DNA of 44,959 nt, taken from Candidatus Binatia bacterium (GTDB taxonomy: Bacteria; Desulfobacterota; Binatia; Bin18). Where the stretch lies: the NCBI GenBank assembly GCA_022824615.1, contig JAJDZM010000182.1:1-44959 (forward strand). The letters run 5' to 3'. Of the stretch, positions 10,167-44,796 are shown piece after piece. A program made the translations under genes and the position numbers. The notes under the pieces were generated by a model, which saw only the letters and a list, made by a program, of their open reading frames with translations, searched no databases and was not told the origin of the DNA. Each line of letters starts with the position of its first letter. Position 1 is the stretch's first letter.

Positions 10167-10970
10167 TTGTACGCTCACCCCTTGGATTCACCCGAACTAT
10201 CGCTGCTCCAACCTCACGATGTCCCTCCGATCGGCCATCTCCATCAGCAGGCGAACACGCCCACTCTTCTTGTCTGCGAGCACGCGGGAAACGCCATCCC
10301 GTCACGACTCGGTACGCTCGGGCTCGCGCAGGCTGAACGGCAGAGTCATATCGGCTGGGACATCGGAGCGTTGGCTGTTGCGCGGGAGTTGGTGCATGCT
10401 CTTCCGGGCGAACTCATCTATCAAAAATACTCACGCCTGGTGGTGGATTGTAATCGACCGCTGGAGGTGCCGGATTTGATTCCCGAAGTCTCAGCAGGGG
10501 TCAGAGTCCCAGGCAACGCGAGTCTTTCGGACGCGCAACGAGCACAACGTATCCGTGAGATTTGGCAGCCCTTCAGTACTATCATCGAGCGGACACTCGA
10601 CGCCCGAGAGCAACGATCAGTGCCGACTGTTCTGGTGTGTATTCACAGTTTTACCCCAACCCTGAACGGGGTCGATCGACCGTGGCATCTGGGGCTGTTG
10701 TTCAATCGCGATGACGCGCTGGCGACCCTGCTGGCCGAGCACCTGCGCGTCGAAGCACCCGAGGCCGTCATCGGCATGAACGAGCCCTATGTTGTGGCTG
10801 ATGATGAAGACCGGACCATTCCGCGGTTCGGTGAGGCGCGTGGCATCCCCCACGTGTTAATCGAGATGCGGAACGATCTTATTCGCAACACAGCGGGACA
10901 GTCGCGCTGGGGACGGGTATTAACCTGTGCGCTTCAGCGCTGTCTTGAGGAGTTGAGGCTATGCCCCTGA
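10167..10970 (+). CDS. N-formylglutamate amidohydrolase family protein
   Basis: Member of the N-formylglutamate amidohydrolase family (PF05013), 267 aa if the TTG at 10167 is the start; no ATG or GTG is available near the N-terminus. Family motifs visible are LLVCEHAGNAIP (zinc region), HIGWDIGA, YSRLVVDCNR, VCIHSFTP, and late GIPHVLIEMRNDLI with the conserved E and RND. These enzymes hydrolyse an N-acyl (formyl) amide of an amino acid. It overlaps the isochorismatase-like gene by 10 bases, which in turn overlaps the glutamine-synthetase-like gene, forming a tightly coupled trio. The real acyl substrate may differ from formylglutamate. Confidence 0.82.
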   Translation: MYAHPLDSPELSLLQPHDVPPIGHLHQQANTPTLLVCEHAGNAIPSRLGTLGLAQAERQSHIGWDIGALAVARELVHALPGELIYQKYSRLVVDCNRPLEVPDLIPEVSAGVRVPGNASLSDAQRAQRIREIWQPFSTIIERTLDAREQRSVPTVLVCIHSFTPTLNGVDRPWHLGLLFNRDDALATLLAEHLRVEAPEAVIGMNEPYVVADDEDRTIPRFGEARGIPHVLIEMRNDLIRNTAGQSRWGRVLTCALQRCLEELRLCP

Positions 10971-11614
10971 GTCGTGATCTGCCGCTCCGCAGAGGCGAGT
11001 CGGCTTTTCTCATTATCGACGTGCAAAACTACTGCGCGCATCCGGATGGGGAAGAAGTCCGTGCGATCCCGGAAGCACGGCGAGCCGAACGCGACTTCTT
11101 CTTTGCCGCCCTCAAACCAGCCGTCAAGAACATTGCGCGTCTCCAGCACTGCTGCCGCGCCGCCGGCATAGAAGTGCTGTTCTGCGTGATCGAAAACCTC
11201 ACCCAAGACGGACGGGACCGTGGCCTCGACTATAAGATTACCGGCTTTAACGTCCCGAAAGGCTCATGGGACGCTCAGGTCCTGGCTGAAATTACCCCGG
11301 TGGGCGATGAGATTGTCATCGGCAAGACAGCGTCGAGTGTGTTCAACTCAACGAACATCGATTATGTGCTGCGTTCTCTCGGAGTCAAACAATTAGTGAT
11401 TGCCGGGGTTGCAACCGATCAATGTGTGGAGAGCGCCATCCGCGACGCCTGTGATCTTGGCTATCTCGTCACCATGGTCACGGACGCGTGTGCCACATAC
11501 TCCGCAGCCCGACAGCAAGCCAGCGAGCAGGCGATCAAGGGCTACTGTCGGCAAGTCGTGACAGTGGACTTGGTTGCCGAAATTGCGTACCTCAGTACGG
11601 GCCATGATGATTAG
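10961..11614 (+). CDS. Isochorismatase-like cysteine hydrolase (RutB/N-carbamoyl amidase type)
   Basis: Cysteine hydrolase of 217 aa. The catalytic triad can be placed: D20 in LIIDVQN, K122 in IGKTASSVFNST and C155 in AGVATDQCVESA. This subfamily includes N-carbamoylsarcosine amidase, nicotinamidase-like enzymes and RutB (ureidoacrylate amidohydrolase), all splitting amide or carbamoyl C-N bonds. The long insert after the first strand (AERDFFFAALKPAVKN) is usual for the RutB/carbamoyl group. It overlaps its neighbours on both sides, so it is almost certainly co-translated with the FGase-like and glutamine-synthetase-like genes. Confidence 0.88.
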   Translation: MPLSRDLPLRRGESAFLIIDVQNYCAHPDGEEVRAIPEARRAERDFFFAALKPAVKNIARLQHCCRAAGIEVLFCVIENLTQDGRDRGLDYKITGFNVPKGSWDAQVLAEITPVGDEIVIGKTASSVFNSTNIDYVLRSLGVKQLVIAGVATDQCVESAIRDACDLGYLVTMVTDACATYSAARQQASEQAIKGYCRQVVTVDLVAEIAYLSTGHDD

Positions 11615-12917
11615 CGAAGACATCATTATGGTCGTCTGCGCGGACCTGGCAAACCAGGTTCGCGGCAAGGGCTTCCCCGCCAAAGAAAGAGAAACGCGGG
11701 TCCGCCGCGGGGTTGGTTGGGTACCGACCAATAGCTTAATCACCTGTTTCAACACGATTGCGGATGGTCCTTTTGGGTCTCTCGGCGACCTGTTGCTCAT
11801 TCCGGACGAGCGTGCGGAAGTCCGGGTTGTTTTTGATGATGGCAGTGCTCCGGAGCATTTCATGATTGGGGACATTCGGACTTCGGACGGCACGTCCTGG
11901 AATTTTTGTCCACGATCGATCTTACAAAGTGCCTTGGCTGACTTGCTCTCTGAAGCAGGCGTGCAACTGAAAGTAGCCTTTGAACATGAGTTTTGGAGCG
12001 TTGCAGACGAGGCAGTACCGTGGTCGAGCTTCGGTTTAGGCAGCTTCAGACACAGCGCAGCGTTCGGACGGACGATTCTCGCTGCCTTGCGGTCGGCTGG
12101 CCTTAAACCCGATACCTTCTTACCGGAATATGGTCAGGATCAATATGAGGTCACGGTTGCGCCCAGCATGGGCCTCCGTGCAGCCGATGAGTGTGTCATT
12201 GTCAGGGAAATGGTCCGGGCCGTCGCCAAAAGAACGGGCCGAAAAGTGAGCTTTTCTCCGGTCGTGAACGAGGGCACCGGCAACGGACTGCATATTCATA
12301 TCAGCCTTGTTGATCGGGACGGGGTTCCCTGTACCTACGACGCCACCAGTCCTGCGCGCTTGACCCCCGTGGCCGGAAGCTTCTTCGGCGGGATTCGGAA
12401 ATACCTGCCCAGCCTGCTGGCGCTGACGGCCTCCAGCGTGGTGTCGTATGAGCGCTTGCAGCCACATCGGTGGAGTGCGGCTTTTAACAACTTTGCAGAG
12501 AATGACCGAGAGGCAGCGTTGCGCGTGTGTCCTGTGATTGGACTGGAAGGGTTCACAGCCGAGTCACAATTCCGTGTGGAATATCGAGCCGCTGACGCCA
12601 CCGCCAACCCCTATTTGCAACTGGCCGTTCTGGCCAGAGCCGGCTTGCAAGGCATGCGAGACAAGGAACCGACACCAATCCCGACGACCGGTGACCTCAG
12701 TCTGCTGGCGAATGACCAGCTAGCGGAAATCGGTGTCGTCAGATTGCCGTCCGACTTGCAGTCAGCCCTCGACCTGCTCGATAATGAGGGGCTGATGCGC
12801 TCGTGGTTCCCAGGGGAATTCATAGATGTATTCCTGGCGCACAAGGCTGGGGAGGTCGCCTTTCTTCAGGACAAAGATACGACTGACATGAGACGCCTGT
12901 ACGCCGATGCGTACTAG
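11604..12917 (+). CDS. Glutamine synthetase family ligase (gamma-glutamyl-amine synthetase-like)
   Basis: Catalytic-domain glutamine-synthetase homologue of 437 aa. Metal and substrate motifs are present: FEHEFW, EYGQDQYEVTVAP (Glu ligands), GTGNGLHIHISL (metal His), RLQPHRWSAAFNN and FRVEYRAADATANPYLQLAVL (the glutamate/ATP-binding RxxD...NPY block). A catabolic, non-assimilatory member such as gamma-glutamyl-amine ligases (PuuA, IpuC type) is more likely than housekeeping GlnA, given the operon with amide hydrolases. It would activate an amine by ATP-dependent coupling to glutamate. ATG 11604 (or 11607) gives an 11-base overlap with the preceding gene; an extension from 11574 is unlikely. 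Confidence 0.85.
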   Translation: MMISEDIIMVVCADLANQVRGKGFPAKERETRVRRGVGWVPTNSLITCFNTIADGPFGSLGDLLLIPDERAEVRVVFDDGSAPEHFMIGDIRTSDGTSWNFCPRSILQSALADLLSEAGVQLKVAFEHEFWSVADEAVPWSSFGLGSFRHSAAFGRTILAALRSAGLKPDTFLPEYGQDQYEVTVAPSMGLRAADECVIVREMVRAVAKRTGRKVSFSPVVNEGTGNGLHIHISLVDRDGVPCTYDATSPARLTPVAGSFFGGIRKYLPSLLALTASSVVSYERLQPHRWSAAFNNFAENDREAALRVCPVIGLEGFTAESQFRVEYRAADATANPYLQLAVLARAGLQGMRDKEPTPIPTTGDLSLLANDQLAEIGVVRLPSDLQSALDLLDNEGLMRSWFPGEFIDVFLAHKAGEVAFLQDKDTTDMRRLYADAY

Positions 12918-12941
12918 CGGCGCACCAGAGAGGAGCAGACG

Positions 12942-13976
12942 ATGAAGATTGGTCTTGGCCCATATGGCATGCAAGCCCCGCCGGAGAGCGGGTTCAGCCA
13001 CGTTCAACTCTACCGCGAGATGCTGGAACAGATCGAGGTCGCCGAGGAGTTGGGCTATGACTCGGTCTGGCTCACCGAGCATCATTTTCTGCCGGACGGT
13101 TATCTGCCGGCATTGCTGGCCTGCGCCGCAGGCATGGCGACGCGAACCAGCCGCATCAAAATCGGTCTCGGCGTGATCCTGCTGCCCCTCTACGATCCGA
13201 TCCACCTGGCCGAAGAAGCGGCGGTGGTCGATCTGCTGTCAGAAGGACGTTTGATATTCGGTATCGCCCCAGGATACCGGCCCGAGGAATTCGCCGGCTT
13301 TCGTATCCCCCATGAAAAACGCGGCGCGCGCATGGAAGAAATCATGAACATTCTCATCCGGGCCTGGACCCAGGAGCGCTTCTCGTTTGCGGGCAAGTTT
13401 TATTCTTACACGGATATGGCGGTGACGCCGAAGCCGGTCCAAAAACCCCATCCGCCCATCTGGATCGGCGCTTCCATTAAAGAGGGCGTGCGTCGGGTGG
13501 CCAGATACGGCCTGCCGCTCCTGGCCTCTCCGCGCCATCGTCTCGAAGAGCTTGAAGCGCATTACGCCATGTACCAGGACTTCTGCGACGCGTTCGGCAC
13601 CCAGGGCCCGCTCAGGCCCGTTATGCGGGATGTGTATGTGGCGGAGACGACCGCCCAGGCGGAAGCGGAGGCCAGGGAGCACGTGGTGTATATTCACCGC
13701 GAATGGTATGGCGCCTGGTCGCAGTGGCGTCCGTTGACCACCGATCAGGGTAAACGAGTCGTCGACAAGTCTGAGGTGCAGTTTGAGCAGATTCGGGGGC
13801 GCTTCATCATTGGCGACCCGGACAGCGTGAGCCGGGAAATCGAGCAGTATCGGCAGAAGCTCGGGATGGATTATCTGATTGTGCGGATGCAGTTTCCCGG
13901 CCTGGCGCATGACAAGGCGCTCCGCTCAATGCGTTTGTTTGCTAAGGAAGTCAGGCCGCGCTTTGCCGACCGCTGA
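12942..13976 (+). CDS. LLM-class flavin-dependent monooxygenase
   Basis: Bacterial-luciferase-like protein of 344 aa. Blocks include VAEELGYDSVWLTEHHF near 35-51, IKIGLGVILLPLYDPIHLAEEAAVVDLLSEGR and RLIFGIAPGYRPEEF, then PHPPIWIGASIKEGVRRVARYGLPLL, which form the FMN site. The EHHF signature is the classical flavin-reductase-partnered monooxygenase type. It starts 24 bases after the glutamine-synthetase-like gene behind AGAGGAG, so it is likely in the same operon. It may carry out the oxygenation step of that pathway. Confidence 0.9.
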   Translation: MKIGLGPYGMQAPPESGFSHVQLYREMLEQIEVAEELGYDSVWLTEHHFLPDGYLPALLACAAGMATRTSRIKIGLGVILLPLYDPIHLAEEAAVVDLLSEGRLIFGIAPGYRPEEFAGFRIPHEKRGARMEEIMNILIRAWTQERFSFAGKFYSYTDMAVTPKPVQKPHPPIWIGASIKEGVRRVARYGLPLLASPRHRLEELEAHYAMYQDFCDAFGTQGPLRPVMRDVYVAETTAQAEAEAREHVVYIHREWYGAWSQWRPLTTDQGKRVVDKSEVQFEQIRGRFIIGDPDSVSREIEQYRQKLGMDYLIVRMQFPGLAHDKALRSMRLFAKEVRPRFADR

Positions 13977-14008
13977 CGGGGGCGGGTTGGACAGCTAGGA
14001 GAGAGACG

Positions 14009-15595
14009 ATGGCTCCGTTCTTTTACGGTGGATGCTTTGGGTGTGACGGCCCGGACCTGTCGAACGCGCAGTCTGAGGGTGGTCTGACCCGCCGCCAGCT
14101 CCTGGTACAGGGCGGTCTGGCCGGGGCGGCTTTTGGGGCGGTCGGTGCTCAGGCTCCGCCGTCCCTCTTTGCCGGCCCGTCGCCACCACCAGACCAACCA
14201 CCGCACCACGATTGCATCATCGAAGCGCCGTGGGGGCTGGTTTTTCGTGAGGGTCGCCTCGCGCTTTTGCCGGACTGCTCGCTCCGGGTTCGCGGAGACC
14301 GTATCGAACAGGTCAAAAGCGGCCGGCTCCGGGGCGATACGCCGCGGCTCCGAGCCAGCGGCCAACTCCTGCTGCCGGGGTTTATTTCGGGTCACACCCA
14401 TACCTGTTCAGCTACCCCGACCCGTGGGATTATTGAGGGCGGCCGGTCGTATGCCCGACCGCTCGAACTGGTCGAGTCTTTGAGCACCGAAGACCTCGAC
14501 ACTCTGACCGCCTATAATCTTGCCGAGTTGCTTCGCTCGGGTTGTACGACCCAGGTGGAAATGAGTCTGAGCCTGCGTCAGGCCGAGTCCTACGTCCGCG
14601 TTGCTAAGCGTTGGGGGGCGCGCGGCTATCCCGGCGGGATGATCCCCGGTATTGCGCGCCTATTCCCCATCTGGTTTCGGCGTTCGGATCAGGTCTTGCT
14701 CGATTCGGAACAGGAAACACTGGCCGAGATTGAAGCCAACCGACAATTTGCCCTGACTCACAACGGCAGCGCAGACGGGCGGATTCGGCCCCAAATGACC
14801 CCGCATGCCACGGACACGCAGACACCAACGACGATGGCGGCCCTTCTGGCCGCGGCCAAAGAAATCGGTAACGGGATTCATATTCACCTCTCCCAGAGCA
14901 CCCAAGAGACACAGACCGTTCAGCGGGTATGGGGCAAACGGCCGGCCTCGTGGTTGGACGAACTGGGCTTTTATTCCGAGCGCATTTTTGGTGCTCACCT
15001 GACCGGGATTGATGTCCAGCACGACCTGCCGTTTTTAGCCGGCAAGAATCTGACTTATGCGCACTGTCCTTCGGGCAATGGCGCCGGCGGCAGCAGTGGC
15101 ACGCAACCCTATCCGGAAGCGCTTGCCGCTGGCGTGCGCACGACGATCGGCATTGACACCCATTCAAACGACTACATCGAAAACCTGAAACTCGCCGTTC
15201 TGTACGGCCGGGCGCGTGCCCGGCTCTTACACGCCAGCAGCCGCGTTCCACTCCACCTGCCGACCATTTTGGATGCCGTCCACGGCGCAACCCTGGGCGC
15301 CGCGCAAGGACTCGGACGAGAAGACCTGGGCCGTCTTGCGCCCGGCGCCAAAGCCGACCTGTGTACGGTTGATGTCAGCGGCTTCCTGACGGGCACCGGA
15401 GCTGTCCCACCCGAGCCCCTCAACAATCTGCTCTACGCCCATGGCCTGAGCGTGCGGCATGTGCTGGTTGACGGAAAATTCCAGGTTTTTCACGGCCAGT
15501 TTATGAGCGATGACACCGCGCGGGTGCAGCGCCAGGGTGGGGCCGTCGTCCAGAAAATCTGGGCTCAACTGCGGGATGAAAAATGGTTTGGCTGA
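14009..15595 (+). CDS. Tat-exported amidohydrolase (chlorohydrolase/cytosine deaminase-like)
   Basis: Cyclic-amidohydrolase superfamily protein of 528 aa. A twin-arginine signal lies at about residues 30-52 (TRRQLLVQGGLAGAAFGAVG), preceded by an unusual Cys-containing leader, GGCFGCDG. The metal motif is GHTHT (about 130-134), and later ligands are IHIHLSQ, GAHLTGID and GIDTHSND, giving the His-His-His-Asp pattern of Zn/Fe deaminases and chlorohydrolases (TrzA/AtzB/SsnA-like). It hydrolyses a ring amine, chloride or amide, unusually in the periplasm if the signal works. It follows LLM2 by 32 bases and belongs to the same rightward run. Confidence 0.85.
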   Translation: MAPFFYGGCFGCDGPDLSNAQSEGGLTRRQLLVQGGLAGAAFGAVGAQAPPSLFAGPSPPPDQPPHHDCIIEAPWGLVFREGRLALLPDCSLRVRGDRIEQVKSGRLRGDTPRLRASGQLLLPGFISGHTHTCSATPTRGIIEGGRSYARPLELVESLSTEDLDTLTAYNLAELLRSGCTTQVEMSLSLRQAESYVRVAKRWGARGYPGGMIPGIARLFPIWFRRSDQVLLDSEQETLAEIEANRQFALTHNGSADGRIRPQMTPHATDTQTPTTMAALLAAAKEIGNGIHIHLSQSTQETQTVQRVWGKRPASWLDELGFYSERIFGAHLTGIDVQHDLPFLAGKNLTYAHCPSGNGAGGSSGTQPYPEALAAGVRTTIGIDTHSNDYIENLKLAVLYGRARARLLHASSRVPLHLPTILDAVHGATLGAAQGLGREDLGRLAPGAKADLCTVDVSGFLTGTGAVPPEPLNNLLYAHGLSVRHVLVDGKFQVFHGQFMSDDTARVQRQGGAVVQKIWAQLRDEKWFG

Positions 15596-24312: not shown

Positions 24313-24332
24313 TACTACAACGCGTTGTAGTA
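24313..24332. repeat. 20-bp perfect palindrome at the DUF262 3' end
   Basis: TACTACAACGCGTTGTAGTA is self-complementary over 20 bases and covers the last five codons and the stop of the DUF262 gene. It could be a hairpin at the mRNA end or a protein-binding site. It has no following T-run on either strand. Confidence 0.6.
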
Positions 24333-26120
24333 GTCCCTAATCTTGACCGCCATCAGCTTTCTACGTTCCTGTAGGAACTCGTCGTAGTCCTTGACACTTT
24401 TCTCTTCCATTCCTTGAGGGATACAGTGCTCATCAAGATTAGCGCGCAATTGAGCGGCGTCTGTTATGCCACCATAGCGGGTCTTACCGTTCTCACATTG
24501 CTCCCATAAACTTTGAAAGTACGTTGCTGGCGCTCTATCGCCTATAGCGATGTTAATCTCGCTCTGCATCACAACATAGTTGGCAATCTGATTGTAGCGA
24601 CCACGTGGAAGACCATTCTTCTTCAGATAGCCACGCGGGAAGATGTGATGAATATCTCTTTGACCTTCAAGTAGGTCGCGCACGGAAAGATCACGCGAGA
24701 GAAAACCTTTGTCATTTCCCTTTACCTGGCTTGCCAAAAAGACGTTGAAATAGGGACTGCTAGCTACCGACGTGTCCATCTGCTGCGCAAGCCCTACATC
24801 CCAGAAGGCATCCGAAAGCTCTGCCTGTTCTATCGTGTCGAGATACTGACTCGCGCCTTGCGTAGCCAGGTTCCGAATATCGACACCAAAGGCGGTCTCC
24901 GGCGAACCAGTGTACCTGCCCGTCAGTACAGACATCACGAACCATCGCCGAACCAGCGTCTCGATTTGGGCAGGATTCACCTGCTGCGCGCGCAACGTCA
25001 AGTATAGGATATAAGCGAAATTGACAGTGTTCTGAGACCGGATCATGGAAGCGTCTACAAACCCTGCCGACCGGAGAATCATAATAAAGCGTTTGAAATC
25101 CGTCTCATTCATATAACACAAAATAGCTTTTTCGAGCCTGGCGAAGGACTGTTCGGCAATAACCTCTTCGTACGCTCGCGTCTCGAAGTTTCGGCCAGAA
25201 AGCAGAGCGACCAAGTCCTCCAAGCGTCCGCGCTTGAACTCGGACGTGAAAGCCACGCGGAGCATGTCAGTGTAGGAAGGGTCGTAGAGGTCTTCTTTTT
25301 CTTGCTTCAACCATTGCATCGCGCTGAAGAAGCGTGTGGTGACGAACTCGCCATCTTTCTCCAGGTCGCCATAGGCTTCTGGCGCTTTAGCAAGATGGCA
25401 GAAATAGTCGATACACTTCCGGAGTTGGTGTCCGTTGTATTTCTCGCTGGCGGCCATCTTGGACATAGCGAAATCCGCCGCGTTCAGCGAGACGCCCTGA
25501 GAATTGATGCGGACGAAGATCTCTGCAACAGTCTCCACGTCCAGGTCGGCGTTGAGTTCTATGAGGCCGAGGGAGTTGTTCTTGATGCCCTCAAGTCTCC
25601 GAATACGGTCGTCGATTTTGCGTTTGTCAGCTTCGGAGTTCGCTTTACAGTACTCATCCACAATCTGGCCCATCCATGAATCTGGAGCAAAGATAGTGGC
25701 GATGTCGTCAAGCCACGCCCGATCCCCTCGGATAGCGGGATTAGCCACCTCAAACCGATCCTCTCCTGCATGGAAGGCTATCGCGATACGTTTTCTGTCG
25801 TAATTCTTGTCAATAACTTGTTGGCCAAGTAACGCCGCCAAAAGCGCCGTCACGCGTTGCTGGCCGTCGATTAGGATACGCTTACCATCTGATTGGGTGC
25901 CATCCTTCAGACGAACGTTAGGATTCCGCCAAGCAATGAGGTATCCCACCGGATAGCCACAATAAAGCGAGTCAATAAAATCGCGCACCTTCGCCGCGTT
26001 CCAAACGAAAGGACGCTGGATATCGGGAATGGCGATTTCACCGGACTTGATCCACGTCAGCAGGGTCTCGACAGGATACTGATTTACTGAGTAACGCTGA
26101 ATGGGCATGGATTCCTCCAC
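24315..26120 (-). CDS. DUF262 + HNH nuclease protein (GmrSD-like)
   Basis: Protein of 601 aa with an N-terminal DUF262 (ParB/GmrS-like) domain. [23 protein letters not shown] lies at 31-53 and [10 protein letters not shown] from 85 carries the DGQQR nucleotide-binding/hydrolysis motif. The C-terminal HNH core is [13 protein letters not shown] at 489-501 with the later Asn in NQIAN. GmrSD-type IV restriction systems use this pair of domains to cut modified phage DNA after NTP hydrolysis, though single DUF262-HNH proteins also occur without proven restriction activity. M5 (26108) is an alternative start. Base composition looks less GC-rich than flanking catabolic genes, consistent with horizontal acquisition. 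Confidence 0.85.
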
Positions 26121-27575: not shown

Positions 27576-28523
27576 ATGAGCAAGCGACAATCTCGACCGG
27601 TATTGTTCGGAGCACTGCTGACGACCCTCCTCTTGTGGGGTCATCCAGCCGCCGGACAAGAATGGACGCAATCGAAGTGGGGGCCGGAGGATGAGATCGG
27701 AAGCGCGAACTACATCACGCCTGAACGCGTGAAGCTCGCGGCCAGTCTGGTCAAGACCGGTAAGACGTACGCGCTCGGGATGGTGACCGGTCCCGACACG
27801 CCGGCCTACCCGCCCCGCCACTACAAGGTCTACGTCTGGGATACCGTGTTGGGGGGACCGAACGAGCTTACCACCACCGACGACTTGGCCGTTACCTGGC
27901 TCGGGGTCGGCAGCCAGATCGACGGGTTCGGTCACGTCGGCATCGATCACGTGCATTACAACGGCTGGAAGACGCAGGACTTCCACTCGCTCACGGGCAT
28001 CAAGAAGTTCGGTGTGGAGAACATCCCACCGATCGTGGCGCGCGGCGTACTGCTGGATATGACAAAATACTATGAGGTCGATATCGTGCCGAACGGTACG
28101 GCCTTCAACAGCAAGGAGATCGACGAGGTTGCGAAGAGACAAGGGGTGGAAATCCGCGAAGGCGACGTGGTGCTGTTCCACACCGGCTGGCTGAAGCAAT
28201 TCGCGCAGATGGGTGAGGGCGAGCCGGGGCTAGGCTTTCCCGAACCGGGCATTGGTGTCGAGGGCGCGCGCCACCTGGCCGGGAAAGGTGTCGTTGCGGT
28301 CGGGGCGGACACCTGGGCGCTGGAGGCCATCCCGTTCGAGCAGGAGGCCGAGCGCTTTCCGGTCCACCAGGAGCTATTGGCCAAGAACGGCACCTACATC
28401 CTCGAGAACATGAACACGGCCGCGCTGGCCGCAGATGCGGCCTACGAATTCATGTTCGTGCTCGGCGCACCGCGCATGGCCGGGGCGGTGCAGACGATTG
28501 TCAATCCCGTCGCGATCCGCTGA
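27576..28523 (+). CDS. Exported cyclase/kynurenine-formamidase-like family protein
   Basis: Protein of 315 aa of the cyclase superfamily (PF04199), metal-dependent hydrolases of N-formyl or lactone-type bonds. It has a signal peptide (residues 1-28, VLFGALLTTLLLWGHPAAGQ). The metal region reads GSQIDGFGHVGIDHVHYNG, a looser version of the HxGTHxDxPxH motif. Later GVLLDMTKYY, IREGDVVLFHTGW and VGADTWALE are family-typical. Start follows GAGGAGGGA. It is convergent with the DUF169 gene. Periplasmic hydrolysis of a formamide or lactone product is plausible; the substrate is not known. Confidence 0.85.
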   Translation: MSKRQSRPVLFGALLTTLLLWGHPAAGQEWTQSKWGPEDEIGSANYITPERVKLAASLVKTGKTYALGMVTGPDTPAYPPRHYKVYVWDTVLGGPNELTTTDDLAVTWLGVGSQIDGFGHVGIDHVHYNGWKTQDFHSLTGIKKFGVENIPPIVARGVLLDMTKYYEVDIVPNGTAFNSKEIDEVAKRQGVEIREGDVVLFHTGWLKQFAQMGEGEPGLGFPEPGIGVEGARHLAGKGVVAVGADTWALEAIPFEQEAERFPVHQELLAKNGTYILENMNTAALAADAAYEFMFVLGAPRMAGAVQTIVNPVAIR

Positions 28524-29540: not shown

Positions 29541-31499
29541 ATGTCCATGTCCAACGCTGATCTCTCACCGCTGTTCGAGCCCATCAAGGTCGGCAAGTTG
29601 CACCTCAAGAACCGGATCGTGATGGCGCCGATGTGCTCGCGTTTGCCGACGGCGGACGGGGAGGTCACGCAGGCGTTGATCGATCACTACGCGGTGCGCG
29701 CGAAAGGCGGCGCCAGCATGCTCATCATCGAGTTCGCCCATGTCGACGAAAAGCTCTCGTCGGCGGAATGGGGCATGCTGAGCGCGAGCAGCGATCGCTA
29801 TCTGGTGGGCCTGAGCCTGCTGGCCGAGACCATTACCCTCAACGGCGCGCGGGCGTGTCTGCAACTCGCGCATGCCGGCCGTCAGAGTTCGTATGCGCAG
29901 CCCTGTCTGTCGCCGTCCGCCATTCCGGACAAGGTCTACGCAGCGCTCTACGGCGATCACTATCGAGTCCGGGAGATCACGCCGGACGAAATCGAGGAAG
30001 TGCTCGACAAATTTGCCGAGGCCGTGCGGCGCGCCAAGAACGCCGGTTTCGAAGCGGTCGAGATCCATGGCGCGCACGGCTACCTGCCCGGTACGTTTCT
30101 GTCGCCTTACGGCAATAAGCGCACCGATGAGTGGGGCGGATCGCTCGAGAACCGGGCACGCTTTTCGCTCGAGATTGTGCGCCGTTCCCGCGCGCTGGTC
30201 GGTCCTGATTTTCCAATCATCTATCGGTACAACGGCGACGATTTCTCGCCCGAGGCGTTCGCCATAGAAGAAGCCCGCGAGTTCGCCCTGATGCTGGAGG
30301 CGGCAGGCATCGATGCGCATCACGTGTCGGGGTCAATCGGAGAGAGCTGGGAGGAGTGCTGCGCGCCTATCTACGCGCCGCGCGGCAACCTCGTGCATCT
30401 CGCCGACGCGGTCAAGCAAGCCGCGACTCTGCCGATCATCACCGTAGGCGCGATCGACGTTCCCATGGCGGCGGAGGTGGTGCGTGACGGAAAAGCCGAC
30501 ATCATCGCTATCGGCCGCGGTTTTCTGACCGACCCCGAGATCCCCAACCACGCCGCAACGGGTGACGTCAGGGCCGTCCGGCCGTGCATTCGCTGTAACG
30601 AGAGTTGTCTGAACGGCGAGATGCTAGGGCGCCCGCAACGCTGTGACGTGAATTTCCAGTGCGGGCGTGAAAGCACCTATCCGATGCGCGCCGCCGATAC
30701 GCGCCGCCGCGTGGTCGTGCTTGGCGGCGGCGCTGCCGGCATGGAGGTAGCGCGGGTCGCCTGCCTGCGGGGACACGAGGTCACACTGTTCGAAAAAACC
30801 GATCGATTGGGCGGCCAGCTTCAAATAGCCGCGCAGCTCGGTTTCAAGGACGACCTGCGCGCGCTGATGGATCACATGGCCTATGAGGTCACGCGCCTAG
30901 ACGTCGACATACGCATGGAGACAGAGGCGACACCGGAGCTGATCCGCCCGTTGAATCCGGACCTGCTGATCGTGGCCTGCGGCGTACAATCGAAGTTTCG
31001 CGACGTCACCGGTGTCGATCTGCCGCATGTCTCCTTTCCCGTCGACCTGCTGGAAGAGAAAGCGATGGCGGGCGACCACGTCATTGTCGTCGGTGGCGGC
31101 TGGCTGGGCTGCGACATCGCGGTTTACCTCGCCCGCCTCGGCAAAAAGGTCGTGCTGACCACCGTCAAGGAAGCCGCCGACGACCTCATTCCCGATCTCG
31201 AGCCCTTCAGCCGCAAGGTGTTCATGGACATGATGATCGGTAACGGCGTCGAGATTAAGGGCAACCACCGCATCGCCGAAATCACGGAGGGGGGCGCTCG
31301 GTTCACCGGCGACGATGGCCAGCTCATCGATCTCGAAGCTGACACCGTCGTACCGGCCTGGGGTTTCCGGCCCGACAGGGAATTCGACAGTGTCGCGCAA
31401 GAGCTTGCACCCGCGTCACACTTTGTCGGCGATTGCGTGCGGCTCGGCAATCTGCGCAGCTGTATCTGGCCGGGGTTTCTTGCCGGGTACGAGGCTTGA
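29541..31499 (+). CDS. OYE-type NADH:flavin oxidoreductase with Fe-S and FAD/NAD domains
   Basis: Multidomain flavoenzyme of 652 aa, like 2,4-dienoyl-CoA reductase and trimethylamine dehydrogenase. Residues 1 to about 340 form the FMN-binding OYE barrel (SPLFEPIKVGKLHLKNRIVMAPM, then HAGRQS, then EIHGAHGYLPGTFLSPYGNKRTDEWGG and IAIGRGFLTDP). A 4Fe-4S linker follows with CIRCNESCLNGE and RCDVNFQCG. The C-terminal part carries a first dinucleotide loop (VVVLGGGAAGMEVARV) and a second (HVIVVGGGWLGCDIA). Electrons pass from NAD(P)H through FAD and the cluster to FMN to reduce or demethylate the substrate. GAGGAGGGG precedes the ATG. It is followed 28 bases later by the RidA fusion. Confidence 0.93.
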   Translation: MSMSNADLSPLFEPIKVGKLHLKNRIVMAPMCSRLPTADGEVTQALIDHYAVRAKGGASMLIIEFAHVDEKLSSAEWGMLSASSDRYLVGLSLLAETITLNGARACLQLAHAGRQSSYAQPCLSPSAIPDKVYAALYGDHYRVREITPDEIEEVLDKFAEAVRRAKNAGFEAVEIHGAHGYLPGTFLSPYGNKRTDEWGGSLENRARFSLEIVRRSRALVGPDFPIIYRYNGDDFSPEAFAIEEAREFALMLEAAGIDAHHVSGSIGESWEECCAPIYAPRGNLVHLADAVKQAATLPIITVGAIDVPMAAEVVRDGKADIIAIGRGFLTDPEIPNHAATGDVRAVRPCIRCNESCLNGEMLGRPQRCDVNFQCGRESTYPMRAADTRRRVVVLGGGAAGMEVARVACLRGHEVTLFEKTDRLGGQLQIAAQLGFKDDLRALMDHMAYEVTRLDVDIRMETEATPELIRPLNPDLLIVACGVQSKFRDVTGVDLPHVSFPVDLLEEKAMAGDHVIVVGGGWLGCDIAVYLARLGKKVVLTTVKEAADDLIPDLEPFSRKVFMDMMIGNGVEIKGNHRIAEITEGGARFTGDDGQLIDLEADTVVPAWGFRPDREFDSVAQELAPASHFVGDCVRLGNLRSCIWPGFLAGYEA

Positions 31500-31527
31500 G
31501 GGTTCCCCTTCAAGGAAGGAGTAACTG

Positions 31528-32754
31528 ATGGCTACGCGACGCTATACCTGGCCCGATGGACACTGGGACTGGCCCATACATGTGACGCACAAGCACGGGG
31601 TGCGGTGCGGCGAGATGATCTTCTTTGGCGGCCAGGTCGATCTCGACTCCGCAGGTAACGTCCGCAATCCGGGTGACCTCACCGCGCAGACCCGGGCCGC
31701 GATGAAGTACATCAGCGTCATTCTGGCCGAACTCGACGCGGACATGGCCGATCTCGTCAAGCTCATCTGTTTCTACGTTCACGATCGCGACGAGGACCGG
31801 GATCGCCTGCTCGCGGAAGTCGCGGCGGCGCTCGGCGAGGGGTCGGGACCGGTGATCTCTCTCATTCCATTGCCGGCGCTCGCTTATGAGGACATGGTCG
31901 TCGAGATCGAGGGCGTGGCGATGCGCGGCGCCGACGGTGCACATCTGGCGCGAACGGCGTCCAACGCCGGGACACCGACGCCCCTGCCCGCACCGTTCAG
32001 TCACGCCTTGCGATGCGGCCGTATGGTGTTCATCGGCGGACAAACGGCGCTCAATGCCGATGGCGGTGTCGTCGAGGCTAGCGATCTCGTCGCGCAGAGC
32101 CGCTTGGTCGCGAAGCGCATCGGCGTGCTGCTCGGTGACCTCGGGGCTAGTTACAACGACGTCGTCAAGGTCAACCGGTACTACGTCGCCGGTGGCACGG
32201 CCAAAGAATGGGAGGGATCGGCGCTAGCGGTTGCGAGTTACTTTGCGGAGCCCGGGCCCGCGGCGACCGGCATTCCCATCCCGGCGCTCTTTCGCGACGG
32301 CTTGATGATCTCCGTCGAAGTGACGGCCATGCTGGGTGAGGATGACGGCCCTCGGCCGCGTCAGCACGCGTGGCCGGCAGGGCATTGGGACTGGCCAGTG
32401 CACCTGCCCTATAAGCACGGCGTCAAGCACGGGAACATGGTCTACGTTGGCGGTCAGGTGTCGATCGATTCTCACGGCACGGTCATCGATCCTGGCGACC
32501 TTGTCACGCAGACGCGTACCAGCATGGCGAACATCGCCAAGGTGCTCGGCGAGTTCGGTCTCGGGCTGGACGACGTCGTCAAGGTGACGGCGTTCTACGC
32601 GGGCAATGCGTCGGCCGAAGTCCTGCACGACAACTTGAGCATCCGCTCGTCCAGTTTCACCGAACCCGGGCCCGCCACGACGGGCATCCCGCTGCCGTGC
32701 CTGGCCTACGAAAAGATGGAGATCGAGATCGAAGTGGTAGCCATGACGGATTGA
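31528..32754 (+). CDS. Three-domain tandem RidA (YjgF/YER057c/UK114) fusion protein
   Basis: A 408-aa protein made of three RidA domains at about 1-131, 141-271 and 281-408. Repeats 1 and 3 are most alike, opening WPDGHWDWPIHVTHKHG and WPAGHWDWPVHLPYKHG, and both continue GGQV-D--G-V--PGDL-(A/V)QTR--M. Repeat 2 is shorter at its start. RidA proteins form trimers with active sites between subunits, so one chain could make a whole trimer. The Arg that binds imine or enamine carboxylates in active RidA lies just before the VEIE strand. Here the three positions read PALAYED, PALFRDG and PCLAYEK, without it, so classic deaminase activity is doubtful. Co-transcribed with the OYE enzyme. Confidence 0.88.
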   Translation: MATRRYTWPDGHWDWPIHVTHKHGVRCGEMIFFGGQVDLDSAGNVRNPGDLTAQTRAAMKYISVILAELDADMADLVKLICFYVHDRDEDRDRLLAEVAAALGEGSGPVISLIPLPALAYEDMVVEIEGVAMRGADGAHLARTASNAGTPTPLPAPFSHALRCGRMVFIGGQTALNADGGVVEASDLVAQSRLVAKRIGVLLGDLGASYNDVVKVNRYYVAGGTAKEWEGSALAVASYFAEPGPAATGIPIPALFRDGLMISVEVTAMLGEDDGPRPRQHAWPAGHWDWPVHLPYKHGVKHGNMVYVGGQVSIDSHGTVIDPGDLVTQTRTSMANIAKVLGEFGLGLDDVVKVTAFYAGNASAEVLHDNLSIRSSSFTEPGPATTGIPLPCLAYEKMEIEIEVVAMTD

Positions 32755-40079: not shown

Positions 40080-41264
40080 ATGACCGCTCCTACTCTGATA
40101 AACGAAGCCCCCAACCTTGTTCGCTTTCTCCACAACGTCCGTACTGCTCCCACTGACCCTGTACTCCTGCGCGACCGGAGCCGGGGTGTCATGTTGGGTC
40201 TGGCCGTCGGGAACGTTCTGGGCCTCCCAGTAGAGGGGCGGTGGTACTATGAGATTGACGACTGGTATCCGGACAGCGTCACTGAGATAAACCCGAAAGC
40301 GAAATCCCTTCTGATGGATGATGACCTCGCCCAAGCCGTGGATTTGGGCGAAGCGCTGCTCGCCGAAGGCGATGCTACCCGCGATTTCGCTAGGCGGCTG
40401 GTGACTTGGCGTCATGAGAACGGGCACGGTATTGGGAACACCACCAAAATCGTCGTCGGTCTATTGGAAATCCTGGAACTCTTGGAAAAAGGAACACCAC
40501 CGTCAGAGGTAGCCCGCGTTTTCTACGAACGCGAACGTCATCGCTTTTTCTACGAACACGGTTCCCCCTTCCCCGATCTACTGACCGATCTACTGGAAAT
40601 ACTGGAAAAAGGAGTGCCCCCGTCAGAGGCAGCCCAATTTTTTCCAGCCCGTATTTTCTACAAGCACAATCCTATCGCCCCCAACGGCGGTCTCATGCGT
40701 TGCGCCCCAGTTGCGGTCGCTCACCACAGCGCCCCTGAACTGTTAGTCCGTGACTCTGCCGCTCTCTGTGCCGTCACCCATTACGCCCCAACCGCCCAAT
40801 GGTCTTGCATCGTCATCAATACCGCTATCGCTCTGTTGCTCCGCGGCGCCAACCCGGATTTGCCCGCCTTGCTTGCCGCGTCGTCTGCCGATGGTGCGCC
40901 TGATATGCTTGCTAAGGCGTCCGCCGACGATATTCCGACTGATGTGCTGGCCAGTATTGTTGGTGGGCGGCCTATCATGGCTGACGCTTCGTGGTTACGG
41001 TGTGACCAGCACCTGATTGGCCACACTCTGTTGGCGATGCAGGCCGGCTTGTGGGCGGTGGCTACGCCGCTGGATTTTGAGGCGGCGCTGGTGCAGATTG
41101 TCAGCGCGGGCGGCGACACCGACACGAACGCCGCCGTAGCAGGTGCTGTTCTGGGAGCCCGCTATGGTGCAACGGCGATCCCCCAACGGTGGCTGGACTG
41201 CATCCCCGAGCGCGAACGGATCGAAGCGCTGGCCGATGACTTATTGGCGCTCTCTCCTGAATAA
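40080..41264 (+). CDS. ADP-ribosylglycohydrolase family protein (ARH/DraG-like) with insert
   Basis: Protein of 394 aa. It has the DraG/ARH layout: GVMLGLAVGNVLGLPVEG at about 37-54, acidic metal motif MDDDLAQAV, GIGNTTK, a central RCAPVAVAH, THYAPTAQWSC, and the C-terminal SAGGDTDTNAAVAGAVLGAR that binds Mg2+ and ADP-ribose. It removes ADP-ribose from proteins or other molecules. Between GNTTK and NGGLMRCAPVAV there is an insert of about 60 residues containing a duplicated segment, LLEILE(LLEK)G-PPSE-A, which the family does not have. A 65-base degenerate copy of its 3' end recurs at 43529. Confidence 0.88.
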   Translation: MTAPTLINEAPNLVRFLHNVRTAPTDPVLLRDRSRGVMLGLAVGNVLGLPVEGRWYYEIDDWYPDSVTEINPKAKSLLMDDDLAQAVDLGEALLAEGDATRDFARRLVTWRHENGHGIGNTTKIVVGLLEILELLEKGTPPSEVARVFYERERHRFFYEHGSPFPDLLTDLLEILEKGVPPSEAAQFFPARIFYKHNPIAPNGGLMRCAPVAVAHHSAPELLVRDSAALCAVTHYAPTAQWSCIVINTAIALLLRGANPDLPALLAASSADGAPDMLAKASADDIPTDVLASIVGGRPIMADASWLRCDQHLIGHTLLAMQAGLWAVATPLDFEAALVQIVSAGGDTDTNAAVAGAVLGARYGATAIPQRWLDCIPERERIEALADDLLALSPE

Positions 41265-41436
41265 GGTGGTCCATATACGTGATTTTCTATCTGGTTCATG
41301 CTGTAAACCCAGGCCAAGACAGTCGGGACAGCTACTAAAGTGTCTACCGTGTGGAGAGTGAGGTTGAGCTCTTCTATCCTCGCCGGGGTAAGCTATCGCC
41401 CGCGTAGCGCAGTATACACATTGACGGAAGGCTGGT

Positions 41437-42201
41437 GTGACAGTGGATAATCGAGACCGCTCGGCCACTGCTCAGTCATTGCTCAACGCACAGTGGGTGG
41501 ACAAGGCGACCCCTACCGAGGTCCGAGCGCTGCTTGACCGGGGGGCCGACCCCAAGGCGTCGGATAAGAACGGCTGGACGCCCTTGCACTTGGCGGCGCA
41601 GTTCAGTGACCCGGCGGTGGTCGCCCTACTACTTGACCGGGGGGCCGACTCCAAGGCACGGACCAAGAGCGGTACAACACCCTTGCACGGGGCGGCACAG
41701 TCCAACAGAAGCCCGGCGGTATTCACCCTACTACTTGACCGGGGGGCCGATCCCAGGGCGCGGGACAAGGACAGCACAACGCCCCTACACCGGGCAGCGC
41801 ATTTCAGCAGAAACCCGGCGGTGGTCGCCCTGCTGCTTGACCGGGGGGCCGATCCCCAGGCGCGAGACAAGAACGGCATGATACCCTTGCACTTGGCAGC
41901 GCGGTCCTCTACCCCGGCGGTGGCCGCCTTGCTGCTCGACCGGGGGGCCGACCCCCAGGCGCAGGACGAGAACGGTACAACACCCTTGCACTGGGCGGCG
42001 GCGATCAGCAGCAATCCGGCGGTGGTCACCCTACTGCTTGACCGGGGGGCCGATCCCAGGGCACGCGACAAGAATGGCGAGACGCCCAGATTGGATGCCC
42101 TGTCGCATCGGTACGTCCAGTACCAGAAGGACCTCTGGAAGGACAGGAGAGAGAAGCTGGGGGCTAGGCTGCTCATGAATTGCCGACCGGCCTCAACTTG
42201 A
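41437..42201 (+). CDS. Ankyrin-repeat protein
   Basis: Soluble protein of 254 aa with about six ankyrin repeats of 33-34 residues. Each has PLH(L/G/R/W)AA and VV(A/T)LLLDRGADP-AR-K-G, the classic helix-turn-helix consensus. The start is GTG 41437 (or GTG 41443). It would mediate protein-protein contact. The repeats are nearly identical at DNA level, with six copies of CTTGACCGGGGGGCCGA (the fifth CTCGAC), so repeat number may vary. It is translationally coupled (TGATG) to the membrane protein at 42201. Confidence 0.88.
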   Translation: MTVDNRDRSATAQSLLNAQWVDKATPTEVRALLDRGADPKASDKNGWTPLHLAAQFSDPAVVALLLDRGADSKARTKSGTTPLHGAAQSNRSPAVFTLLLDRGADPRARDKDSTTPLHRAAHFSRNPAVVALLLDRGADPQARDKNGMIPLHLAARSSTPAVAALLLDRGADPQAQDENGTTPLHWAAAISSNPAVVTLLLDRGADPRARDKNGETPRLDALSHRYVQYQKDLWKDRREKLGARLLMNCRPAST

Positions 42202-43672: not shown

Positions 43673-44716
43673 TTACTCGTAGTCTGTGTGGCTCACGAGA
43701 TGCTGGATAGCCAGATTTGACGACCCATAGCTGACAATGGCGACGTCCAGATCAGCATTCCGGTAGAGATCCAAGGCGCGTTGGAGGCCGCCAAGAATCC
43801 AAGCGGTTTTGTTTTCAAACACTCCGCCCCCGACCAGAGTCAGAAACACCTTATTGTTACCATTGTTACCGGTTTTGCTCGCATTCACGAGAGCCGCGCA
43901 GAGTGTAGCCTCATAGGTCGCCTCCAGAATGAGCCGGGCGAACTCCGTCCAAAGTTCGTGAGGATGATCCAGATAGCCGACCGGCAAAGCGGAACAATAG
44001 GCTTGGGAGACCGTGTGCGTGCAGTCATCAAGCGTCACTTGCGTTTGCCACTGAAGGCCGATACGGAGTAAGGCTCGCAACTCGTCCAGTTCCGGCTCAC
44101 TCAATGCGCGCAGGCGCTCCCCAATCTTGACCAACCCATCATATGAGGGCCACGCATACCCGTTGCGCATGTCCCACAGACGGTTCCCGGTATTGCCCAA
44201 GGCCGCGCCGATATCGGCTAGGCAATCGATCTGGTTGGTAGCGGATTGCCCGGTCTGCCCATTTACGGGGGCAAAGTAGTTGCGATAGATCGTACCCGCT
44301 CCCGCCGCAATGGCACACGCCGGTCCCTGAGTGCGGTCATCTTCATAAATGCCAACCCCCTCCTCAGGGGTGACCTCCGGACCTGTCATTTCAAGCAAAT
44401 TGAACTGGGACGCGACCTGAAACAGTGCACCCTTATTCGTCGTGTTTGTGTGTAATTCCTGGACGTCCTTAACGATTTCACGGACTGTCATGGCTCCGGT
44501 CTTATACCCACTCGCCTGCACCCGGTGGCGCAGGTCGGCCAAGGACGGCGTCTCCAGTTCGCCGCACACTAGCTCTTTCCCGTTTTCATGAGATTTCAGT
44601 ACATTGCCTTCTACGCTGAGATTCGTCCGCACCTGCTCGGGGGACTCTTCTGCAAAGCCGGTCAGTTTTTCAAACCACCTCTCATCATCATCAAATACGG
44701 CATGACCATTGGGCAT
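43673..44716 (-). CDS. Conserved protein of unknown function, possible macrodomain-like
   Basis: Protein of 347 aa. The start at ATG 44716 has AAGGAGAC at 5-6 bases; GTG 44731 is rejected. The N-terminus carries the short motif ERWFEKLTGFAEES. The core is GALFQVASQFNLLEM, TPEEGVGIY and the run TQGPACAIAAGAGTIYRNYF, then LVGGGVFENKTAWILGGL and DLDVAIVSYGSS near the C-terminus. The GGGVF-N---W block and alternating strands recall macrodomain ADP-ribose sites, but I cannot confirm this. Its neighbourhood of ADP-ribosylglycohydrolase fragments supports an ADP-ribose theme. Confidence 0.7.
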   Translation of the reverse strand: MPNGHAVFDDDERWFEKLTGFAEESPEQVRTNLSVEGNVLKSHENGKELVCGELETPSLADLRHRVQASGYKTGAMTVREIVKDVQELHTNTTNKGALFQVASQFNLLEMTGPEVTPEEGVGIYEDDRTQGPACAIAAGAGTIYRNYFAPVNGQTGQSATNQIDCLADIGAALGNTGNRLWDMRNGYAWPSYDGLVKIGERLRALSEPELDELRALLRIGLQWQTQVTLDDCTHTVSQAYCSALPVGYLDHPHELWTEFARLILEATYEATLCAALVNASKTGNNGNNKVFLTLVGGGVFENKTAWILGGLQRALDLYRNADLDVAIVSYGSSNLAIQHLVSHTDYE

Positions 44717-44727
44717 ACGTGTCTCCT

Positions 44728-44796
44728 TCACTCTTCGGCAAAACCGGTCAGTTTGTCAGACCACTTATCCTGCTTCTTCGCTCCACTCCCTGACAT
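44728..44796 (-). pseudogene. Duplicate of the neighbouring gene's N-terminus (22-aa frame)
   Basis: ATG at 44796 opens a frame ending KKQDKWSDKLTGFAEE-stop, nearly the same as ERWFEKLTGFAEE at the start of the 43673-44716 protein. It stops right at that gene's ribosome binding site. It looks like a truncated extra copy of the N-terminal motif, left between the IS relic and the intact gene. Confidence 0.5.

Follow-up and report, generated by a model that had tools for sequence, protein, structure and literature searches.

A single-chain triple Rid protein lacking Arg105 and the divergence of its active-site half-sites

The triple Rid gene and its surroundings

The window (the whole stretch of 44,959 nucleotides of Candidatus Binatia DNA analysed here) contains a single ATG-started open reading frame encoding a triple Rid protein of 408 amino acids, which is preceded by a Shine-Dalgarno-like sequence and by the gene of an OYE-family flavoenzyme (Table 1). 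PF01042 is the sole Pfam family in the protein and is matched over three stretches (E 6.8e-48), which bears out the first-pass annotation of three RidA domains in a single chain. The score of 162.1 bits, against a gathering score of 27.3, places the protein in the Rid superfamily (PF01042 / YjgF-YER057c-UK114), and TIGR00004 (Rid family detoxifying hydrolase) likewise matches in three stretches, with 116.3 bits for the whole protein as compared to a cut-off of 106.25. Repeats 1 and 3 had been described as close and repeat 2 as different, and this agrees with their identities: 45% between repeats 1 and 3, and 33% and 37% between repeat 2 and those two. Alignment scores for the repeat pairs ranged from 179 to 299, whereas the shuffled maximum was 37 (500 shuffles per pair).

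Table 1. Features of the triple Rid locus and of the wider window
Feature	Position	Strand	Basis or remark
N-formylglutamate amidohydrolase, isochorismatase, glutamine-synthetase-like and amidohydrolase families	10167-15595	+	same-strand run
Luciferase-like gene	12942-13976		by eye; inside the 10167-15595 run
GmrSD N-terminal domain protein	24315-26120	-	PF03235
Cyclase	27576-28523		PF04199
OYE-family flavoenzyme (PF00724 + Pyr_redox domains)	29541..31499	+	Pfam; stop 28 bp before the triple Rid start
Shine-Dalgarno-like AAGGAAGGAG	31512..31521	+	read from sequence
Triple Rid protein, 408 aa	31528..32754	+	single ATG-started ORF
Repeat 1	31528..31929	+	HWDWP motif and Glu126 (Glu half) kept; Ile110 at Arg105 column; Ala99 at helix-Arg column
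Ile110 codon, repeat 1 Arg105 column	31855..31857	+	alignment
Glu126 codon, repeat 1 Glu120 column	31903..31905	+	alignment; E in 40/40
Repeat 2	31972..32337	+	HWDWP absent; Ser262 at Glu120 column; Ala246 at Arg105 column; Val235 at helix-Arg column
Ala246 codon, repeat 2 Arg105 column	32263..32265	+	alignment
Repeat 3	32362..32751	+	HWDWP, Glu400 and helix Arg373 kept; Thr384 at Arg105 column
Arg373 codon, repeat 3 helix Arg	32644..32646	+	alignment; R in 40/40
Thr384 codon, repeat 3 Arg105 column	32677..32679	+	alignment
ADP-ribosylglycohydrolase gene, then ankyrin-repeat gene	40080-42201	+	
352-aa ORF	43673-44731	-	no Pfam match at 1e-6

Full-length orthologs, 92-93% identical, were found in five of six same-genus genomes, in records labelled Candidatus Binatia (three), Candidatus Binatota (one), and Desulfurellaceae (one). 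No match was obtained at 1e-20 in nine other genomes of the same family, and a family-profile scan (E 1e-40) of a draw of 395 genomes of the phylum returned the window's own genome as its only match. For three of the five loci in the same genus, dN/dS was 0.22-0.24; for a gammaproteobacterial ortholog of 72% identity it was 0.09, with dS (2.2) near saturation. The three Pfam stretches, the orthologs, and the dN/dS values rule out a chance or spurious frame, and by these sequence measures the gene is real, maintained, and under purifying selection.

The best PDB matches of the flavoenzyme are NCR (6qkg, 297.4 bits) and 2,4-dienoyl-CoA reductase (1ps9, 256.9 bits). An imine-making amine dehydrogenase was considered for this neighbor and rejected, as histamine dehydrogenase (6de6, 186.8 bits) and TMADH (1djn, 181.6 bits) both score below these two. 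The flavoenzyme gene also adjoins the triple Rid gene in the five same-genus loci, where its identity is 96-98%. It does so too in L036, which belongs to a MAG with a gammaproteobacterial label (OYE 79% identical, triple Rid 72%), and this arrangement was seen only in that one genus and that one MAG. The two genes may constitute a module that, if the MAG is rightly labelled, moved between phyla.

Neighbors of the other triples were surveyed by scanning 75 of 100 picked upstream ORFs and 72 of 100 picked downstream ORFs; since the greedy ORF picks include spurious frames, only Pfam-matched neighbors were used. In seven loci the triple has an amidase-type gene as its direct neighbor, and in six of them that gene is on the same strand, with an open frame that starts at most 150 bp from the triple's stop codon. 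Among the scanned ORFs, the arginase family accounted for 4/75 upstream and 2/72 downstream, amidases for 6/72 downstream, and FAD-dependent DAO oxidoreductases and M20 hydrolases for 4/75 and 3/75 upstream, with class-III aminotransferases also represented. Directly upstream of the triple lie a DAO-family gene in L057 and a histidinol-dehydrogenase-family gene in L040. The first-pass annotation had proposed a look at the neighbors of other triple fusions. The context leans toward amine and amide catabolism, but no single substrate common to the neighbors was found, their identity varying by lineage (the L103 record is unannotated).

Several other features of the window and its relatives were recorded. 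Two genes lie between the PF04199 cyclase gene and the triple Rid gene. A cyclase gene is also found next to single-domain Rid relatives on a plasmid of Arthrobacter, and two genes distant on one of Paracoccus; it adjoins a single-domain relative in G059 (L023) as well, where it was assigned by ORF likeness and not by Pfam. The link between this cyclase and Rid genes is a lead. The same-strand run that begins with N-formylglutamate amidohydrolase looks like a nitrogen-compound catabolic cluster, and the GmrSD gene is a restriction-type gene within a metabolic region.

Distribution and origin of three-domain Rid chains

Three tandem RidA domains in one chain, "presumably covalently linked trimer units", were described as 3x-RidA by Niehaus et al. 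in 2015 (PMC4433059), with EF_0115 of Enterococcus faecalis as an example. The window protein has this layout, as do its relatives, whose chains are about 410-420 amino acids long. The suggestion in the first-pass annotation that such chains are rare does not hold: it was already published in 2015 (PMC4433059), and of 12 genomes sampled from the window's class, six have three-domain Rid frames (two each in G000 and G003; also in G016, G017, G019, and G024), the first domain being weak in G019 and G024 (20 and 10 bits). The further triple fusions that the annotation proposed to look for were found, with 39 of 68 loci from a GTDB scan encoding three Rid domains in one ORF, as called with a Rid profile built from our own seed domains and not from Pfam. 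The remaining loci were one- or two-domain, split over two frames, ended by a contig edge, or without a domain match (L078). Record labels of the triples cover Binatia, Alpha-, Beta-, and Gammaproteobacteria, and one Oceanobacillus, and several three-domain chains in plasmid records are annotated merely as "RidA family protein".

A tree of 104 repeats, for which the window protein, 23 of the 39 GTDB triples, and three plasmid triples were used, rests on few columns and has many weak forks. In 26 of 27 triples, repeat 2 belongs to a single clade (100/95); repeat 3 of 24 triples makes up another (99/88), and repeat 1 of 26 triples falls in a clade (100/98) that also includes the long-branched repeat 3 of L106 and L107. 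The repeat 1 and repeat 3 clades are sisters (99/92). These repeat-wise clades, with repeats 1 and 3 as sisters, support descent of the window family from one old triplication, within the limits set by the weak forks. The repeats of L074 (100/97), of the G017 triple (100/95), and of a second triple in the window's own genome, G000:C260 (100/98), each form a clade of three of their own, and on this weakly forked tree triplication would have occurred at least four times. An E. faecalis triple (WP_002367615.1), which lies outside the tree, has repeats 51-57% identical to one another and 18-33% identical to those of the window protein and L074; being closer to each other than to the others, they probably reflect a fifth, separate triplication. 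Repeated arrival at three domains fits a trimer made covalent.

The second triple in the window's genome (G000:C260, L009:557-1867, minus strand, 436 amino acids) is of separate origin, and its repeat 2 holds the only Arg105 among 14 aligned Rid domains of this genome, in which Pfam gives 16 matches; G003 has a similar 466-codon frame with three Rid matches. A Chloroflexi record (L073:1928-2930, plus strand) has two adjoining single-domain Rid genes that group with the single-domain relatives of the triple, a possible pre-fusion state. At L039:5408-9292 (plus strand), the triple Rid frame extends upstream as one 1295-codon open frame, either a long fusion or an accidental frame, and at L071:8288-9546 (plus strand), the coding region spans two overlapping frames (two domains plus one), owing to a frameshift, an assembly error, or a true split.

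Arg105 and an arginine on the cleft helix

When the three repeats were aligned with E. coli RidA, TdcF, RutC, YoaB, and YjgH, the column of the catalytic Arg105 was occupied by isoleucine, alanine, and threonine, respectively, and Arg was absent from this column in every repeat of all 40 aligned triples. The first-pass annotation was therefore correct that the deaminase Arg is missing from all three repeats, but not that Ala or Cys replaces it; residues 117, 253, and 391, probably those it meant, sit seven residues past the Arg105 column. Judged by Arg105, the window repeats belong neither with the imine deaminases (RidA / Rid1-Rid3) nor with the RidA-subfamily domains of 3x-RidA. Classical RidA identity is ruled out both by profile scores and by this alignment, and RutC identity by a TIGR03610 score of 71.9 bits against a cut-off of 169.1, with the alignment also against it.

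Loss of this Arg is itself no novelty, contrary to what the annotation had implied: the Rid4-Rid7 groups were described by Niehaus et al. as lacking Arg105 while keeping the Glu, and were called "mysterious" in 2015 owing to the missing catalytic Arg (PMC4433059). The window protein resembles them in both respects. It differs from them in having three domains per chain, and from Rid4 and Rid7 in lacking the Trp that these carry at the Arg105 column; Rid5 and Rid6 are described as variable there (PMC4433059). The E. faecalis triple WP_002367615.1 (possibly EF_0115) has Lys, Arg, and Arg at the Arg105 column and Tyr at the helix position discussed below, in contrast to the window family, where Arg105 is absent, a helix Arg is present, and the repeats are strongly diverged. 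By its sequence, the window protein is a member of an old, mostly proteobacterial 3x-Rid family without Arg105, and neither the three-domain layout nor the loss of Arg105 is new as a kind.

Other active-site and interface residues are kept to different degrees. The Glu120 column holds Glu126 in repeat 1 (Glu in 40/40 triples) and Glu400 in repeat 3 (39/40), with Ser262 in repeat 2, where Glu is found in only 3/40. In AtRidA a Lys136-Glu182 pair ties subunits together (PMC4960622), which by our own matching corresponds to E. coli Lys73 and Glu122. Every repeat of the window protein retains both members (Lys78, Lys214, and Lys352 with Glu128, Glu264, and Glu402), as expected of a Rid trimer. Among 39 triples, a count that excluded L074 and the plasmid triples L103, L106, L107, L109, and L110, the Lys is present in 35, 37, and 36 for repeats 1, 2, and 3, and Glu or Asp in 39, 38, and 39. 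The window protein has PF01042, the interface Lys/acid pair, and, in repeats 1 and 3, Glu120 in common with E. coli RidA and TdcF, but differs from them in lacking Arg105 and Asn88, in having Gly at Ser30, and in keeping Tyr17 in repeat 3 only.

An Arg in repeat 3 (Arg373) lies 11 residues before the Arg105 column and aligns with E. coli RidA Tyr91, three residues past Asn88, an active-site residue of TdcF (PMC5979572). In the alignment used for the half-sites below it falls instead at RidA 94, where E. coli RidA has a short insert. By residue counting, the same place was equated with AmnE Gln103, a conserved cleft residue (PMC6742747). The expectation that Arg373 faces the cleft is based on this match to RidA Tyr91. 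The annotation had foreseen that the Arg might prove shifted but conserved: none stands at the strand position, yet an invariant Arg on the cleft-lining helix of repeat 3 may make this partly true.

The relation between the two positions was examined in 47 Rid domains. In each of the 15 domains that bear Arg105, the helix position is occupied by Tyr, Phe, or Trp and in no case by Arg or Lys, whereas in the 32 domains without Arg105 (two of them gapped at that column), the helix position is Arg or Lys in 17, His in four, aromatic in five, and another residue in six. Arg105 and a helix Arg or Lys never occur together in this set (Fisher p 0.0002, with kinship uncorrected and the window repeats included). 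The set is a non-random sample: it comprises the loci listed from two 12-genome searches, in which not all matches were given a locus, plus the window's own genome; it includes kin, own-genome genes in three same-genus copies, and the three window repeats, and omits L012 (partial) and L013 (unaligned). Within it, the mutual exclusivity of the two residues at the aligned columns is clear. Single-domain relatives in the window's genome have either Ser at the Arg105 column with a helix Arg, or Trp with a helix Lys. Eighteen single-domain rows, mostly from Rhizobium, have Met at 105 and Tyr at 91, hence neither Arg, which speaks against a swap as a general rule. We hypothesize that in part of the family the helix Arg is a relocated anion-binding Arg.

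Half-site divergence and the remaining clefts

In AtRidA, Arg165 binds the ligand carboxylate and Glu180 is supplied by the neighboring subunit (PMC4960622); these residues correspond to RidA Arg105 and Glu120. As the two come from adjacent subunits, every domain contributes one Arg half and one Glu half, belonging to two different clefts. Retention of each half was counted in 28 non-redundant triples, 11 of 39 having been dropped as near-duplicates. The ancestral state was approximated by nine symmetric domains, three being the L074 repeats and six single-domain relatives, and the boundaries of the halves were drawn from the strand and helix description in PMC6742747.

The three repeats differ markedly. 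Repeat 1 keeps the Glu in 28/28 triples and the His, first Trp, and second Trp of HWxW in 24, 22, and 9, with the helix Arg in three and the strand Asn in none. Repeat 2 shows the reverse, keeping the helix Arg (at the position of Val235 in the window protein) and the Asn in 26 each, the Glu in two, and the HWxW residues in 4, 2, and 1. Repeat 3 keeps the helix Arg in 28, the Asn in 25 (the window protein has Thr354 at this column), the Glu in 27, and the HWxW residues in 27, 27, and 28. The fractions of the Arg and Glu halves retained were 0.38 and 0.59 in repeat 1, 0.52 and 0.38 in repeat 2, and 0.48 and 0.72 in repeat 3. At these aligned columns, the half-sites have diverged, with the Arg half lost in repeat 1, the Glu half lost in repeat 2, and both kept in repeat 3, a clear pattern of loss that supports the three non-equivalent pockets proposed in the first-pass annotation.

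Lineages differ in what was lost. In 27 of 45 triples, the helix Arg is present in repeats 2 and 3 and the Glu in repeats 1 and 3. The repeat 2 Arg has been lost in seven (the window protein, the five same-genus loci, and L036), only the repeat 2 Arg and repeat 3 Glu are retained in three (L106, L107, and L110), and eight show other half-site patterns. With the Arg half of each repeat i set against the Glu half of repeat i+1, these patterns would leave two complete clefts in the 27-row group, one in the window lineage, and one, a different one, in L106/L107/L110; under the opposite packing the numbers are one, zero, and zero. The i/i+1 arrangement is preferred because it leaves a complete cleft in all three groups, whereas the reverse leaves none in two of them. 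L103 has no complete cleft under either packing, which counts against a simple rule, and L043/L070, L050/L054, L047, L074, and L109 have the same number either way and favor neither. The repeat 3 Glu half is intact in the window lineage although its predicted partner has Val235 in place of Arg; as it shows no decay despite the lost Arg, this cleft may still bind something.

The distant plasmid triples L106, L107, L109, and L110 have lost both the repeat 1 Glu and the repeat 3 helix Arg, and L103 has lost the Glu. Three further triples, WIW50287.1 (Bradyrhizobium sp. 62B), WP_280736260.1 (Sinorhizobium numidicum), and WP_140523185.1 (Mesorhizobium sp. B2-1-1), are 29-32% identical to the window protein. 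In the first two, repeats 1 and 2 group inside the corresponding clades of the window family, while repeat 3 is long-branched and does not join the repeat 3 clade; unlike the window protein, both keep the opposite pair of half-sites (Arg in repeat 2, Glu in repeat 3).

We infer from these patterns that the 408-residue chain most likely folds as a single Rid trimer in which the Arg half of each repeat would face the Glu half of the next. The several separate triplications and the Lys/acid pair kept in all three repeats argue for the pseudo-trimer suggested in the first-pass annotation. The cleft between repeats 1 and 2 would then be dead in most of the family and would have died first, with lineages later losing different second clefts. 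As the window lineage has also lost the repeat 2 Arg, i/i+1 packing would leave the cleft between repeat 3 (Arg373) and repeat 1 (Glu126 and the HWDWP segment) as its sole complete one. There, Arg373 on the cleft-lining helix would probably anchor a ligand carboxylate or other anion in place of Arg105, in a roomier pocket. The most likely job would be the water-assisted hydrolysis of an imine, enamine, or related reactive nitrogen intermediate larger than 2-aminoacrylate, as part of a catabolic step that also involves the neighboring OYE-type flavoenzyme. We give this reading as a whole, a single-chain Rid trimer with diverged clefts and one complete, hydrolytic cleft working alongside the OYE enzyme, a probability of roughly 0.5; the new ligand or activity anticipated by the annotation is plausible. 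Counting against this reading are the absence of deaminase activity in the Rid4-Rid7 members assayed to date (PMC8113886), the undecayed repeat 3 Glu half of the window lineage, and neighborhoods that vary between lineages.

Other readings were weighed against the same observations. The chain could be a non-catalytic single-chain trimer that has lost deaminase chemistry in all pockets and acts as a metabolite sensor, a carrier, or a partner subunit of the flavoenzyme. This would account for the absence of Arg105 from every repeat and for the lack of deaminase activity reported for the Rid4-Rid7 members tested so far (PMC4433059, PMC8113886), but the retention of the repeat 1 Glu and the repeat 3 helix Arg in 28/28 non-redundant triples each fits catalysis or a specific anionic ligand better than a scaffold, and we regard a non-catalytic role as rather unlikely. 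Packing in the reverse direction, with the Arg half of repeat i against the Glu half of repeat i-1, would make a different cleft complete, perhaps with a different ligand in each. The seven rows of the window lineage and the three of L106/L107/L110 would then be left without a complete cleft, which makes this arrangement improbable even though it would preserve exactly one in most of the family (the pattern of 27/45 rows). Least probable, and in our view very unlikely, is that the repeats trimerize between chains like beads on a string, with no ring closed within one chain: while the 20-31 residues from the interface acid to the Tyr17 column of the next repeat would allow it, the separate triplications and position-specific divergence of the repeats fit a closed ring of unlike units, and conservation of complementary half-sites would hardly be expected if chains formed mixed rings with one another.

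Beyond the single-chain trimer with one complete cleft preferred here, a broader proposal can be put forward tentatively, as possible but somewhat doubtful: that Rid proteins without Arg105 are often not dead deaminases, their anion-binding Arg having moved from β5 to the cleft helix in a second, unrecognised catalytic design, and that 3x-Rid lineages independently pruned three equivalent sites to two and then to one, keeping different ones. Neither the half-site pattern nor the helix Arg was found reported among the literature matches listed for 3x-RidA, for tandem, triple, or fused RidA, and for Rid4-Rid7 with YjgH, and a literature search on YjgF as a pseudotrimer found no paper. What may be new here is the divergence of the half-sites and the helix Arg that possibly replaces Arg105. 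The association of Arg105 with an aromatic helix residue, or often of no Arg105 with a basic one, provides a two-residue hypothesis for what may replace the catalytic Arg in part of the Rid4-Rid7-type proteins. The 3x-Rid family would itself be a natural experiment in which a symmetric trimer with three interface active sites became an asymmetric single chain. Its half-sites can be told apart and their loss followed in the sequence, so that the family points to the cleft to be studied and to the residues worth testing.
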